From assembly GCA_013153475.1 (NCBI GenBank), contig JAADEJ010000059.1, positions 1 through 47,746 of the forward strand: a DNA stretch of 47,746 nucleotides, read 5' to 3'. Position 1 is the stretch's first letter. Every line of letters starts with the position of its first letter. This stretch comes from Campylobacterota bacterium. Its GTDB lineage: Bacteria; Campylobacterota; Campylobacteria; Campylobacterales; Hydrogenimonadaceae. The notes beneath the pieces are model-generated. The model ran no database searches and was not told the origin of the DNA. It worked only from the letters and a program-made list of their open reading frames with translations. Positions 4,466-10,823 of this stretch are shown one piece after another. The position numbers and the translations under genes are program-made.

Positions 4466-5848
4466 ATGACACCGAAAGAACGTTACAAAAAACTCAAACA
4501 GCACCTCAGTGAGGAGAATCCGGTACTGTTGGATGTCATCAAACAGTATGAGCAGTTGGACAAAACCGCCCACGCGCTCGGTTTTTTGGAGCCGGAGCAG
4601 AGTTTTACCGAAAAGATCTCCTGGTGGCCGCTCATTTCGGTGTTGGGGACCTTCTCGGCGGGAAAATCGACATTTATCAACAGTTACCTGGGGGTCAAGG
4701 TACAAGAGAGCGGCAACCAGGCGGTGGACGACAAATTTACCGTCATCACCTACGGCAACGACGAAAAGCCCATGACCCTGCCGGGTCTGGCGCTGGATGC
4801 CGATCCCCGGTTTCCTTTTTACAATATCAGCGAAGAGGTGGAGAAAGTAGAAAAAGGGGAGGGAAACCGGGTCAACCTCTATCTACAGCTCAAAACCGTC
4901 AAGTCCGACGCCATCAAAGGGGAGATTCTCATCGACTCGCCCGGTTTCGACGCGGACAGCCAACGCGACGCCGTTTTGCGTATTACCGACCATATTATCG
5001 GCATGAGCGACCTGGTGCTCATCTTTTTTGACGCCCGGCATCCCGAACCGGGCGCCATGCGCGATACCCTCAAGCATCTGGTGGGCGCGACGATGGGACA
5101 GCGCGACAGCGACAAAATTTTGTATATCCTCAACCAGATCGATACCACCGCCAAAGAGGACAACCTCGAAGAGGTGATGGGCGCGTGGCAGCGGGCGCTG
5201 TCGCAACAGGGGTTGATTTCGGGCAACTTTTTCGCTGTCTATGACGAGTCGGCCGCCGGCCCCATTGACGACGCGGCGGTGGCGGAGCGGTTGAGGCGCA
5301 AACGGGATGAGGATATGGCCAAGATCGTCAGTCGCATGGAGGGAGTGAAGGTGGAGCGGGCCTACCGTATTTCCAAAGCGCTGGAGGACTTTGCCAAGGA
5401 GATTATCCAGAACAAGCTGCCGACTCTCAAAGAGAGTCTCAACCGCTGGGGGCGGCGGGTGTTGCTGGCCGATCTCTTGACCCTCGGGCTTCTGGGCGGC
5501 GGCGCCTGGGCCGCCGTGATGTTAGGGGCGGTGCCCGCCGGTCTGGCGTGGGGGCTTTACGGTGCGGCGGCGTTGCTGATTGTATTGCTGCACTTTCGCT
5601 ACCGTAAATGGTTCGCCGCCGCCGAATTGCATCGGTGGGGCGAAAAAGATGAGAAGATGGCTGCTGCCGTGGCCCACAATACCCGTTGGTACCGCCCGAT
5701 GCTAAGGGTCTGGCTGCCGGGTTGGAGCCGCCGTGCCGCCGAGCGGCTGGAACGGGTGATCGACTACTCCAAAGCGGCGATTCGCCGCCTGAACGATCAG
5801 TATGTCAGCCCCGCTGGGGCGGATGTCAAAGAGGAAACGACGCTTTAA
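4466..5848 (+). CDS. Dynamin/EHD-like GTPase with C-terminal transmembrane hairpin
   Basis: P-loop GTFSAGKSTFI, DSPGFD (G3), LNQID (G4-like), hydrophobic pair LLTLGLLGGGAWAAVMLGAVPAGLAWGLYGAAALLIVLL. Confidence 0.75.
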   Translation: MTPKERYKKLKQHLSEENPVLLDVIKQYEQLDKTAHALGFLEPEQSFTEKISWWPLISVLGTFSAGKSTFINSYLGVKVQESGNQAVDDKFTVITYGNDEKPMTLPGLALDADPRFPFYNISEEVEKVEKGEGNRVNLYLQLKTVKSDAIKGEILIDSPGFDADSQRDAVLRITDHIIGMSDLVLIFFDARHPEPGAMRDTLKHLVGATMGQRDSDKILYILNQIDTTAKEDNLEEVMGAWQRALSQQGLISGNFFAVYDESAAGPIDDAAVAERLRRKRDEDMAKIVSRMEGVKVERAYRISKALEDFAKEIIQNKLPTLKESLNRWGRRVLLADLLTLGLLGGGAWAAVMLGAVPAGLAWGLYGAAALLIVLLHFRYRKWFAAAELHRWGEKDEKMAAAVAHNTRWYRPMLRVWLPGWSRRAAERLERVIDYSKAAIRRLNDQYVSPAGADVKEETTL

Positions 5849-7509
5849 CGCTTCAAAAAGGCGGGTACCTCTTTGTAGGTGACGGGCTTGGCGAAGAGAT
5901 AGCCCTGCATCTCTTCGCATCCCATCTCTTCGAGTATCTGTTTCTGTCTTCCTTTTTCCACCCCTTTGGCCAGGGCGTCCAGTCCCATGGCCGATGCGAC
6001 CGCCAAAGAGGCTTTGACGATATGGTTGGGGGTATCGCTTTCGATCCGGCTGATAAGGTTGCGGTCGATCTTGAGTTTCTTGAAATCGTACTTTTTCAGA
6101 TCGCTTAATGAGGAGTAACCGCTTCCGAAGTCGTCGATGCTGATTTGGCAGCCGAGCTCCGTAATCTTTTTGATATTCTCCAATCCCTCTTTCCCGGCCT
6201 GTAACAGGCTCTTTTCGGTAATCTCGAATTCGATGCGCCGGGCGGGGATCTCGTAACGCTCCAGGATGGTCTTGGTAAAGGCGAACCAGGATTTGTCCAT
6301 GACCTGTTTATGGGAGAGATTGATGGAGAGGAGAAAATCGTCGATGGCCGTCTCCCGTTCCCACTCCCTGAGACGTCGGCAGCAGTTTTCGAATACCCAG
6401 CGGCCGATACGGATGATCAGTGTACTCTCTTCGGCGACGGGGATGAATTCTGTTGGGGTGAATGTCTCTCCGATGGAGGCTTTGAGACGAAGGAGCGCCT
6501 CGAAACCGATTACCTTGCCGCCCAGAATATCGATCTGCGGTTGGAACAGAAGGTAGAAATTCCCTTTTTCCAGCGCTTCGCTGAGAATCTGCTCGATGCG
6601 GTAGTGGCGTTTGATGGCATGGTCGATGGCGTCGGTGTAGTAGCGGAAACCGTGTTTGCCCTCTTTTTTGGCCAGGTACATGGCGTTGTCGGCGTTTTTG
6701 ATGAGTGTTTCGGTGGTGGTGCCGTCTTTGGGGAAGATGGCGATGCCGATACTGGTGCCGATATGATAGGCGACTTTGTTGACGACAAAAGGTTCGTCGA
6801 ACGCTTTGATGATCCGTTTGGCCAGATACATCAGCGCCTTGCGGTTTTTGTAGGGTTCGACCAACAGCAAAAACTCGTCTCCCCCGAAACGAGCGAGAAA
6901 GTCGCTGGTTCTTAGGACCTTTTGAAGACGTTGCGCCGCCTCTTTGAGAACGTTGTCTCCCGCTTCGTGGCCCAGGGTATCGTTGATGGTTTTGAAATTG
7001 TCCAGGTCGATGAAAAAGAGCGCCCCTTCGGTACCGTTGCGCTGGGCATGGCGGATCGCCTCTTCCAGTTTTCGGATAAAATAGAAACGGTTGGGCAGAC
7101 CGGTGAGGCGGTCGTGGGTGGCTTCGTAGAAGAGCTTTTTGGAAAAAGCCGACTCTTTCCGGTTGGCGGGTTGAAAGAGCAGCGCGTGGCCGAGCAGTCG
7201 GTTGGCGGGATCGAAAATCGGCGTGATGTCGGCATGGGTGGGAATGGGTCCCTGGGAGGTTCTGACGGTGACCCTGCCGTGGAACCCCTCCTCCTTTTCC
7301 AACGCGTGCCGTATCCGCTTGCGCTCACGGGGAAGGAAAAGGCTGTAAAGGTCGGTGATCTCCTCTTTGTCGAACAACTCCTCGAAAGATTTGTTGCAGA
7401 AGAGGTCGCCCTTGATGCGGTAAAAGAGGAAAGGAATACTGCTTTCGACGAAAAGGGTTTGAAGCGTCGTCAGGCATATGTCTGTTTCAGGGAGGGATTC
7501 GTAACGCAA
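5845..7509 (-). CDS. PAS-GGDEF-EAL domain protein (c-di-GMP signalling)
   Basis: RTSDFLARFGGDEF (I-site plus GGDEF), FEALLRL, SINLS, EITEKS, IDDFGSGYSSL, LKIDR, AKGVE, MQGYLF; N-terminal PAS-like region. Confidence 0.9.
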   Translation of the reverse strand: MRYESLPETDICLTTLQTLFVESSIPFLFYRIKGDLFCNKSFEELFDKEEITDLYSLFLPRERKRIRHALEKEEGFHGRVTVRTSQGPIPTHADITPIFDPANRLLGHALLFQPANRKESAFSKKLFYEATHDRLTGLPNRFYFIRKLEEAIRHAQRNGTEGALFFIDLDNFKTINDTLGHEAGDNVLKEAAQRLQKVLRTSDFLARFGGDEFLLLVEPYKNRKALMYLAKRIIKAFDEPFVVNKVAYHIGTSIGIAIFPKDGTTTETLIKNADNAMYLAKKEGKHGFRYYTDAIDHAIKRHYRIEQILSEALEKGNFYLLFQPQIDILGGKVIGFEALLRLKASIGETFTPTEFIPVAEESTLIIRIGRWVFENCCRRLREWERETAIDDFLLSINLSHKQVMDKSWFAFTKTILERYEIPARRIEFEITEKSLLQAGKEGLENIKKITELGCQISIDDFGSGYSSLSDLKKYDFKKLKIDRNLISRIESDTPNHIVKASLAVASAMGLDALAKGVEKGRQKQILEEMGCEEMQGYLFAKPVTYKEVPAFLKR

Positions 7510-7699: not shown

Positions 7700-7724
7700 A
7701 ACTTGACATAGTTTCTGTCAAGTT
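7700..7724. promoter_or_regulatory. HAIR-like (HspR-type) inverted repeat AACTTGACA-N7-TGTCAAGTT upstream of htpG
   Basis: Perfect 9-bp arms with a 7-nt spacer, overlapping the -35 box; compare HAIR consensus CTTGAGT-N7-ACTCAAG. Confidence 0.6.
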
Positions 7725-7731
7725 GTACAAT
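7703..7731 (+). promoter_or_regulatory. Putative sigma70 promoter of htpG: TTGACA-N17-TACAAT
   Basis: Near-consensus -35 (7703-7708) and -10 (7726-7731) with 17-bp spacing, 28 bp before the htpG ATG. Confidence 0.75.
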
Positions 7732-7759
7732 TGCAACTAAAAAACAAGGAGTTTTGCGC

Positions 7760-9580
7760 ATGGCGAAACATCAATTTCAGACCGAGGTGAATCAACTGCT
7801 TAACCTCATGATCCACTCTCTTTACTCCAACAAAGAGATCTTTTTGCGTGAGCTTATCTCCAACGCTTCCGACGCGCTGGACAAGCTGCACTATCTCAAA
7901 CTGACGGACGAGAAATACAAAGGACTCGACCAACCCGAGAAGATCGTCATTGCCTATGACGAGGAAAAGAAGACCCTGCGCGTCAGCGATACGGGGATCG
8001 GCATGAATGACGAAGAGATGGTGGAAAACCTGGGTACCATCGCCAAAAGCGGTACCAAAAGCTTTATCGAGAGTCTGACCGGCGACGCCCAGAAAGACAG
8101 CCATCTGATCGGGCAGTTCGGCGTGGGCTTTTACAGCGCCTTTATGGTGGCGCATAAGGTGGAGGTGCTCAGCCGTAAGCCGTTGGAGGAGAAAGCCTGG
8201 CGATGGGTGAGCGACGGCAGCGGTGAGTATGAGATCGAAGAGGCCGAAAAAGAGGGGTACGGCACCGAAATCACCCTTCACCTAAGAGAGGAGGCGGCGG
8301 AGTTCGCGTCCGAGTGGCGGATTAAAAGCATTGTGGAAAAATACTCCAACCACATTCCTTTCCCCATCTACCTGCTAAACGACAAGGGCGAAGAGGAGCA
8401 GATCAACAAAGCCTCGGCCCTGTGGCGCCTGAGCAAAAGCGAGCTCAAAGAAGAAGATTACAAAGAGTTCTACAAGCAGATCAGCCATGACAGCGAAGAT
8501 CCGCTTTTGTGGGTGCATACCCGCGCCGAGGGGACACTGGAGTACTATACCCTCTTTTACGTGCCCAAAAAGGCGCCCATCGACCTCTTCCGCGTCGACT
8601 ATCAGCCCGGCGTGAAACTCTATGTCAAACGGGTTTTCATTACCGACGAGGAGAGGGAACTGCTGCCTACCTACCTACGCTTCGTGCGCGGCATCATCGA
8701 CGCCGAGGATCTGCCGCTCAATGTCAGCCGCGAGATTTTGCAGGAAAACGTCATTCTTTCCAAAATCAAAAAAGCGAGCGTCAAAAAGATTCTGGGCGAA
8801 CTTAAAAAGCTGATGGAGAAGGATCGCGAGGCGTATGAAGGGTTCTTCGCCGAGATGGGCAAGGCGCTCAAAGAGGGGATCTACTCCGATTTCGAGAACA
8901 AAGAGACCCTGCTGGATCTGATGCTTTTCAAATCGAGCGAGCGGGATGGCTGGGTGAGCTTCAAAGAGTACAAAGAGCGGATGAAAGAGGGACAGGAGAA
9001 GATCTATTACCTGATGGGTGAAGATGAAAATCTTCTGCGCCACTCTCCGCTTCTGGAGAAGTACAAGGCCGAGGGTATCGAGGTTCTGCTTTTTGCCGAC
9101 GAGGTGGACGCCATCGTGATGCCGGGTGTGAGCGAGTACGACGGCACGCCGCTGGAGAACATCGCCAACGTGGAGGATGAGGGCGAAGTGGATGAAAAGA
9201 CCAAAGAGAAGTACGCCCCGCTCCTTGCCGCCATGAAGGCGGAGCTGGGTGATGCGGTCAAGGAGATTCGCCTGACCAAACGGCTCAAAGACTCACCCGC
9301 CGTCGTGGTCTTTGACAAAAACGATCCCGATCTTCAGATGCAACAGATTTTGCGGCAGATGGGGCAGGAGGTGCCCGAGCCCACCCCGATTTTGGAGATC
9401 AATCCCGATCACGAGATTTTCAGCCGGCTCCTGTTGGTCGATGACGAGAGCCAGACCAGAGAGGTGGCCCATGTGGTCTTTGACGCGGCCAAAATGGCCG
9501 CCGGCCTGGAGGTGAAGGATGTGGCCGATTTCAACGCCCGTCTCAATCGTCTGATCGCCAGGGCGATCGGGCAGGCTTGA
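7760..9580 (+). CDS. htpG: Molecular chaperone HtpG (Hsp90)
   Basis: MAKHQFQTEVNQLLNLMIHSLYSNKEIFLRELISNASDALDK, DTGIGM, GTIAKSGTKSF, GQFGVGFYSAFMV. ATG at 7760 preceded by AAGGAG. Confidence 0.97.
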   Translation: MAKHQFQTEVNQLLNLMIHSLYSNKEIFLRELISNASDALDKLHYLKLTDEKYKGLDQPEKIVIAYDEEKKTLRVSDTGIGMNDEEMVENLGTIAKSGTKSFIESLTGDAQKDSHLIGQFGVGFYSAFMVAHKVEVLSRKPLEEKAWRWVSDGSGEYEIEEAEKEGYGTEITLHLREEAAEFASEWRIKSIVEKYSNHIPFPIYLLNDKGEEEQINKASALWRLSKSELKEEDYKEFYKQISHDSEDPLLWVHTRAEGTLEYYTLFYVPKKAPIDLFRVDYQPGVKLYVKRVFITDEERELLPTYLRFVRGIIDAEDLPLNVSREILQENVILSKIKKASVKKILGELKKLMEKDREAYEGFFAEMGKALKEGIYSDFENKETLLDLMLFKSSERDGWVSFKEYKERMKEGQEKIYYLMGEDENLLRHSPLLEKYKAEGIEVLLFADEVDAIVMPGVSEYDGTPLENIANVEDEGEVDEKTKEKYAPLLAAMKAELGDAVKEIRLTKRLKDSPAVVVFDKNDPDLQMQQILRQMGQEVPEPTPILEINPDHEIFSRLLLVDDESQTREVAHVVFDAAKMAAGLEVKDVADFNARLNRLIARAIGQA

Positions 9581-10823
9581 GCCCTTCGATCGTGAAGATG
9601 TGTCGTCCCGCCTCGTAGCGGTGGTTGAGGCGGGCGTCGTGGGCCTGTAAAATGGCGTGGATGATATAAAGCCCCAGACCGAAACTGTCTCTGCTTTCGC
9701 CGGGATCGCCCTTGGCGAAAGGTTCGATCAGCTTCTCGAAAGGTGCCCGCAGGGGCGCTCCCTCATTCTCGAAATGTACCGTTCCCCCTTCTTCGCAGAC
9801 AATGCGCAGTGACCCCTCTTTGCCGTATTTGAGGGCGTTGTCGATCAGGTTTTTGACCACGATGGTCATCAGCTCCTTGTCCACCATATAGGTGTGCTCC
9901 TCCTCACACTCCGAAGGGATCGGTTTGGGAAGGAAGAGGCGGGCGGAAGCCTCCTGTACCAGCGTGTCCATCGAGTAGGGGACGGGGTTGACGGAGAAGG
10001 ATTTGGAGGTAAAGCGCTCCACCTCCGCCAGTTGGGCAATCAGCTCCTCCATCCGCTCAAATGCCCGCCGCAGCACCTGCTCCTCTTCGCTCTCGTCGAT
10101 CAGCGCCACGGAGAGTTTCCCTTTGGTGATCGGGGTTTTGAGCTCGTGCATGATGTTGCGCATAAAGAGGTTGCGGGCCTCCCGCATCGCCTGGATTTTC
10201 CGGATGGCTTCGTCGAAACGGTTGGCGATGGTGGCGATTTCGTCCTTTTTGTCGCTGCGTAAAGAGTCGGGGATCTCCCCGTCACCGAAACGTTCGATGG
10301 CCCGGCTCAGTTTTTTCAGCGGTTGAAGGGTACCGCGAATACTCAGATAGAGCGCCACAAAGAGCAGCAAAACGGCCAGTCCGTAGAGCAGGGTCTGGTG
10401 GATATCCGGGGTGTGCAGATCGGTGGCGATGATGTGTTGGTTATGGGGACCGCGGAAGACAAGGTAGAGTCGTTGGCCGTTTTCGTAGACTTTCAGACGG
10501 CCGTCTTTGAGCCGTTCATTGATATTTTTGCCAAAAATAGGCGGCGGGTGGGGGGAAAAGAGCCGTCTGGGAACCGGTAGTTCGTCCGCCAGGGTGGGGA
10601 GCAGTTCGTAACCTCTCGACTGTAGACGGGGAGAGAGGAGGGATCGGGGGGTCTCCAGCAAAATGCGTCGAATCTGCTTTTCATGGAAGAGAAAACTTTT
10701 TTGAAGGGTCTCTTCCCGGGTTCTCTGGCTCTCCCGGTAGGCGGTGAAACCGAGCCACAAGAGTATGCCGAGTGCCGTCAGGAAGAGCAGATTGAGACGG
10801 AAAAAGAGGGAGTGGCGGTTCAC
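9543..10823 (-). CDS. Sensor histidine kinase (ArsS-family-like)
   Basis: HAMP region, H-box MHELKTPITKGKL, N-box NLIDNALKYG, G-box SFGLGLYII; N-terminal transmembrane segments. Confidence 0.88.
   Translation of the reverse strand: MNRHSLFFRLNLLFLTALGILLWLGFTAYRESQRTREETLQKSFLFHEKQIRRILLETPRSLLSPRLQSRGYELLPTLADELPVPRRLFSPHPPPIFGKNINERLKDGRLKVYENGQRLYLVFRGPHNQHIIATDLHTPDIHQTLLYGLAVLLLFVALYLSIRGTLQPLKKLSRAIERFGDGEIPDSLRSDKKDEIATIANRFDEAIRKIQAMREARNLFMRNIMHELKTPITKGKLSVALIDESEEEQVLRRAFERMEELIAQLAEVERFTSKSFSVNPVPYSMDTLVQEASARLFLPKPIPSECEEEHTYMVDKELMTIVVKNLIDNALKYGKEGSLRIVCEEGGTVHFENEGAPLRAPFEKLIEPFAKGDPGESRDSFGLGLYIIHAILQAHDARLNHRYEAGRHIFTIEGLKPARSPWRSDD

Follow-up and report, generated by a model that had tools for sequence, protein, structure and literature searches.

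The htpG gene of this Hydrogenimonas genome is preceded by a palindrome that overlaps its promoter, and the question is which protein, if any, reads it. HspR is a MerR-family regulator. An earlier note on the DNA considered here (the window, a stretch of 47,746 nucleotides) had described the palindrome as a variant HAIR-type operator of an HspR-like repressor acting by occlusion of the −35 box. Comparative analysis of the sequences makes it very probable that the palindrome is bound by HspR, the heat-shock repressor. That it is the operator of the genome's own HspR, whose dimer would repress htpG and release it upon heat, is assigned a probability of about 0.87.

The proposed htpG operator and the promoter

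The features of the locus are listed in Table 1. As the earlier note had claimed, the two arms form a perfect 9-bp inverted repeat around a 7-nt spacer, TTGACA lies in the left arm with TACAAT 17 bp downstream, and the htpG start codon follows after a further 28 bp; all this can be read directly. Each half-site contains CTTGA and the spacing is exactly that of HAIR elements, again as claimed; compared with the strict Streptomyces arms CTTGAGT/ACTCAAG, 10 of 14 positions match. The −10 hexamer is TACAAT or TAAAAT across the genus. The gene product was identified as HtpG by the NCBIfam model (768.9 bits, cut-off 371).

Table 1. Features of the htpG upstream region and its surroundings (positions in the window)
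Feature	Position	Strand	Remark
Proposed HspR operator, HAIR-like inverted repeat AACTTGACA-N7-TGTCAAGTT	7700..7724	.	core 21 bp = 7702-7722
Left operator arm AACTTGACA	7700-7708		read from sequence
Operator spacer TAGTTTC	7709-7715		read from sequence
Right operator arm TGTCAAGTT	7716-7724		read from sequence
−35 hexamer TTGACA	7703..7708	+	within left operator arm; same fusion at clpB, hrcA, hsp20 in genus
−10 hexamer TACAAT	7726..7731	+	immediately after right operator arm, 17 bp from −35
Shine-Dalgarno-like AAGGAG	7746..7751	+	read from sequence
htpG, 606 aa, Hsp90 family, proposed regulated gene	7760..9580	+	NCBIfam NF003555
GGDEF-EAL protein gene, divergent neighbour of htpG	5845..7509	-	probably outside the system

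Pattern searches of the 1.76-Mb genome found CTTGACA-N5..9-TGTCAAG only once, at htpG; assuming uniform bases, the chance expectation for the repeat with fixed N7 is about 0.007 per genome. The looser pattern CTTGA-N11-TCAAG has three further matches, with inner bases unlike those of the htpG operator, and two of them overlap long open frames. Two other genes of the window lie close by: that of an ArsS-family sensor kinase (9543-10823) is convergent with htpG, and that of a dynamin-family GTPase (4466-5848) adjoins the GGDEF-EAL gene.

HspR and the sites at other heat-shock operons

The hspR gene was found directly behind a cbpA-type DnaJ gene (G000:C7:2939-3310). Its product scores 124.4 bits against a cut-off of 105 with the NCBIfam HspR equivalog NF047375 and is the sole PF13411 (MerR_1) protein found in the Hydrogenimonas assembly. 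The earlier note had named a lack of hspR as the first argument against its reading, and thus this objection falls. Among the 60 genomes searched, hspR was detected in 56.

Similar repeats, which the earlier note had expected at other chaperone promoters, are indeed present in this genome. HAIR-like sites were found upstream of cbpA-hspR (GTTGATT-GACATGG-ACTAAAC), clpB (CTTGACA-ACAATTG-ACTAAAT), hrcA-grpE-dnaK (GTTGACA-ATAGAAC-ACTCAAT) and groESL (CTTTAGT-CTATCTG-ACTAAAT), and the 7-nt spacer is common to these sites both here and in the genus. Fusion of the left HAIR arm with the −35 box is not confined to htpG: it is also seen at clpB and hrcA-grpE-dnaK, and congeners have it at hsp20 as well. 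At cbpA, TTGACA is found a few bases inward of the arm of the site. The groES site stands well ahead of its promoter; in locus L088 and the groES loci of the genus, groESL has this HAIR-like site about 140 bp upstream. These groESL loci also have a CIRCE-like repeat after the −10 box.

The left arm of the genus sites is CTTGACA in 9 of 11 cases at clpB and in 13 of 15 at hrcA. Thus, while the presence of hspR, the sites common to the heat-shock operons and the conservation described below support the proposal of an HspR-type operator, the htpG left arm is not a variant, as had been suggested: CTTGACA is the ordinary form where a HAIR arm doubles as a −35 box. Left arms with the inner CA are likewise present at the clpB and hrcA sites of the genus, so that the strict Streptomyces arms are seemingly not required here. 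The right arm is another matter. It is ACTMAA at the four classical targets of the genus (cbpA, groES, clpB, hrcA), unlike the TRTCAA of htpG, and this symmetric form is particular to htpG and, in congeners, hsp20.

The pattern STTGACA-N9-TMAA occurs in the genome at exactly three places, the hrcA, clpB and htpG promoters. The reversed pattern used as a control also has three matches genome-wide, so the count is not above chance; yet each of the three places is a heat-shock promoter.

A search of 18 genomes for STTGAYA-N7-TRTCAAS yielded htpG and, in several congeners, also the promoter of a gene of the Hsp20 family (PF00011; loci L312, L314, L315, L316 and L319), where AACTTGACA-N7-TRTCAA, its arm fused to the −35 box, is followed by TATAAT. 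At these loci the gene, located at 1500-2008 in L312, is divergent from a short-chain-dehydrogenase-like gene. In a survey covering part of the pattern matches, all examined loci with both arms and a −10 box precede hrcA or grpE, clpB, htpG or hsp20. The Hydrogenimonas genome itself contains no STTGAYA-N7-TRTCAAS match outside htpG.

Conservation of the htpG site

A half-site matrix was trained on the cbpA, groES, clpB and hrcA sites of the genus, with htpG excluded. It ranks the 21-mer at 7702-7722 highest in the window (15.4; the runner-up scores 11.7), and when the 150 bp upstream were shuffled with dinucleotides preserved, 1 of 1000 shuffles reached this score. The htpG promoters of 12 genus members score 11.1-15.4, values equalled by 0-7 of 1000 shuffles. 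Among the spacings compared, N7 alone gives a score of at least 10 in every one of the 13 genus genomes; other spacings do so in none or one.

The arms and N7 are retained in all 12 aligned genus members and the sequence of the spacer drifts: the columns of this alignment average 2.0 bits of information in the left arm and 1.65 in the right arm, as against 0.48 in the spacer. The right arm sits between the −35 and −10 boxes and is not known to have a promoter role. That such an arm is conserved while the adjacent spacer varies points to binding by a protein. In the 13th genus member, G002, the site and promoter are kept with the outer base pair changed on both sides (ATTGACA-N7-TATCAAT with TAAAAT behind it, about 190 bp ahead of the htpG start codon). 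Operator and promoter there (locus L013, about −190 to −1) are separated from htpG by some 130 bp more than their counterparts in congeners, and the leader between promoter and gene contains a G+C-rich stretch, as if an insertion had occurred.

Beyond the family, 44 of 70 htpG upstream regions from the rest of the order Campylobacterales score at least 10 within 130 bp upstream of the gene; shuffles give an expectation of 1.3, and in far upstream control sequence 4 of 68 reach this score. The regions at or above this threshold represent 15 families. A few of the matches lie over the ribosome-binding region (−22 to −36) and are likely due to chance. The sites vary in form: symmetric CTTGATA-N7-TATCAAG in families f9 and f10; hybrid CTTGATA-N7-ACTAAAG (f20), CTTGATA-N7-ACTAAAT (f18) and CTTGACA-N7-ACTAAAC (f12); and classical CTTTAGT-N7-ACTAAAG in f5 and f16. 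It is chiefly on this continuum at a single gene that the assignment of the symmetric htpG form to HspR rests. The matrix scan of upstream regions found no site at htpG in some hspR-bearing relatives, e.g. G019. This speaks against the assignment, as do the differences of the htpG site from the Streptomyces HAIR in the inner dinucleotides and from the classical targets of the genus in the right arm. Two genomes in which no hspR was detected, G023 (f7) and G057 (f8), have no htpG site and a borderline one, respectively, too small a number to bear on co-loss.

Alternative explanations

One possibility is that a separate dimeric repressor binds the symmetric class CTTGAYA-N7-TRTCAAG at htpG and hsp20, leaving the ACTMAA class to HspR. 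The symmetric right arm does set these two genes apart from cbpA, clpB, hrcA and groES, and it recurs at htpG in f9 and f10. However, clpB and hrcA have this very half-site, CTTGACA, as their left arm, with the same N7, other families have hybrid or classical forms at the same gene, and no PF13411 protein other than HspR was found in the assembly, which makes this explanation improbable. In a related suggestion, the symmetric sites form a second operator class, recognised either by another repressor or by HspR, whose mode of binding or affinity would then be distinct; Hsp90 and the holdase Hsp20 would thereby be timed apart from DnaK, GroEL and ClpB; we regard this as tentative and rather doubtful.

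The membership of HspR in the MerR family and the way in which the operator, like a MerR activator site, fills the interval from the −35 to the −10 box might instead suggest that HspR or a relative twists the promoter and activates htpG. MerR-activated promoters have 19-20 bp between these boxes. Here the spacer is 17 bp, and 17-18 bp in relatives, which is near optimal, and thus such activation is very unlikely. Moreover, the HspR proteins known from this phylum are repressors (PMC7464140, PMC6102357). It is still harder to believe that the palindrome is fortuitous and htpG merely has a strong constitutive promoter: although TTGACA-N17-TACAAT alone would be active, the right arm is conserved and the seven spacer bases are not, STTGACA-N9-TMAA matches only heat-shock promoters in the genome, and the site is enriched throughout the order.

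The CIRCE element, the operator of HrcA, has the form TTAGCACTC-N9-GAGTGCTAA and lies near the start site; reading of the htpG upstream sequence revealed none. The PF01628 (HrcA) profile had no match in 40 genomes, though the gene upstream of grpE looks HrcA-like; probably the model misses a divergent HrcA family.

Proposed regulation and comparison with known systems

Under HspR control of htpG, an HspR dimer would read the two CTTGACA half-sites set 7 bases apart. When bound, it would sit over the −35 box and the spacer of the promoter, excluding the sigma70 RNA polymerase at ordinary temperature; heat or unfolded-protein stress would lead to release of HspR, and the near-consensus promoter would then fire. 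Binding, repression and heat release at htpG are all inferred from the known biology of HspR.

HAIR sites in Streptomyces coelicolor and S. albus share with those considered here the CTTGA half-site core and the 7-nt spacing, but have the inner dinucleotides GT/AC, as opposed to CA/TG at the Hydrogenimonas htpG. The transcriptome of a C. jejuni hspR mutant was reportedly described by Andersen et al. in 2005.

HAIR sites and the repression of chaperone genes by HspR are established (PMC7464140, PMC6102357). In C. jejuni, the sites at Pcbp, Pclp, Pgro and Phrc are imperfect CTTGAGT-N7-ACTCAAG repeats, similar to the Hydrogenimonas sites, and at Pcbp and Pclp HspR protects the core promoter and is sufficient for repression (PMC7464140), the precedent for the mechanism proposed here. 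On the other hand, each C. jejuni promoter has several HspR sites, unlike in Hydrogenimonas, and those of Phrc lie upstream of the core promoter, whereas the Hydrogenimonas hrcA site is fused to the −35 box (PMC7464140). The situation in H. pylori is analogous, with one HAIR per promoter, N7, essential arms and autoregulation of the cbpA operon; however, the direct HspR sites described there are Pcbp, Pgro, Phrc and speA (PMC6102357).

The HspR footprinting and ChIP studies of C. jejuni (PMC7464140) and H. pylori (PMC6102357) do not mention htpG, and no report of htpG or hsp20 as an HspR target was found in the literature searched, its scope being publications other than older subscription papers. 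Since related htpG sites are found in many families, its absence from these two studies may reflect loss of the site or non-detection of htpG as a target.

These predictions would add Hsp90, and in Hydrogenimonas also Hsp20, to the published HspR targets of Campylobacterota. The candidate sites suggest economy of design: at several heat-shock promoters, a single half-site of the repressor doubles as the −35 box.
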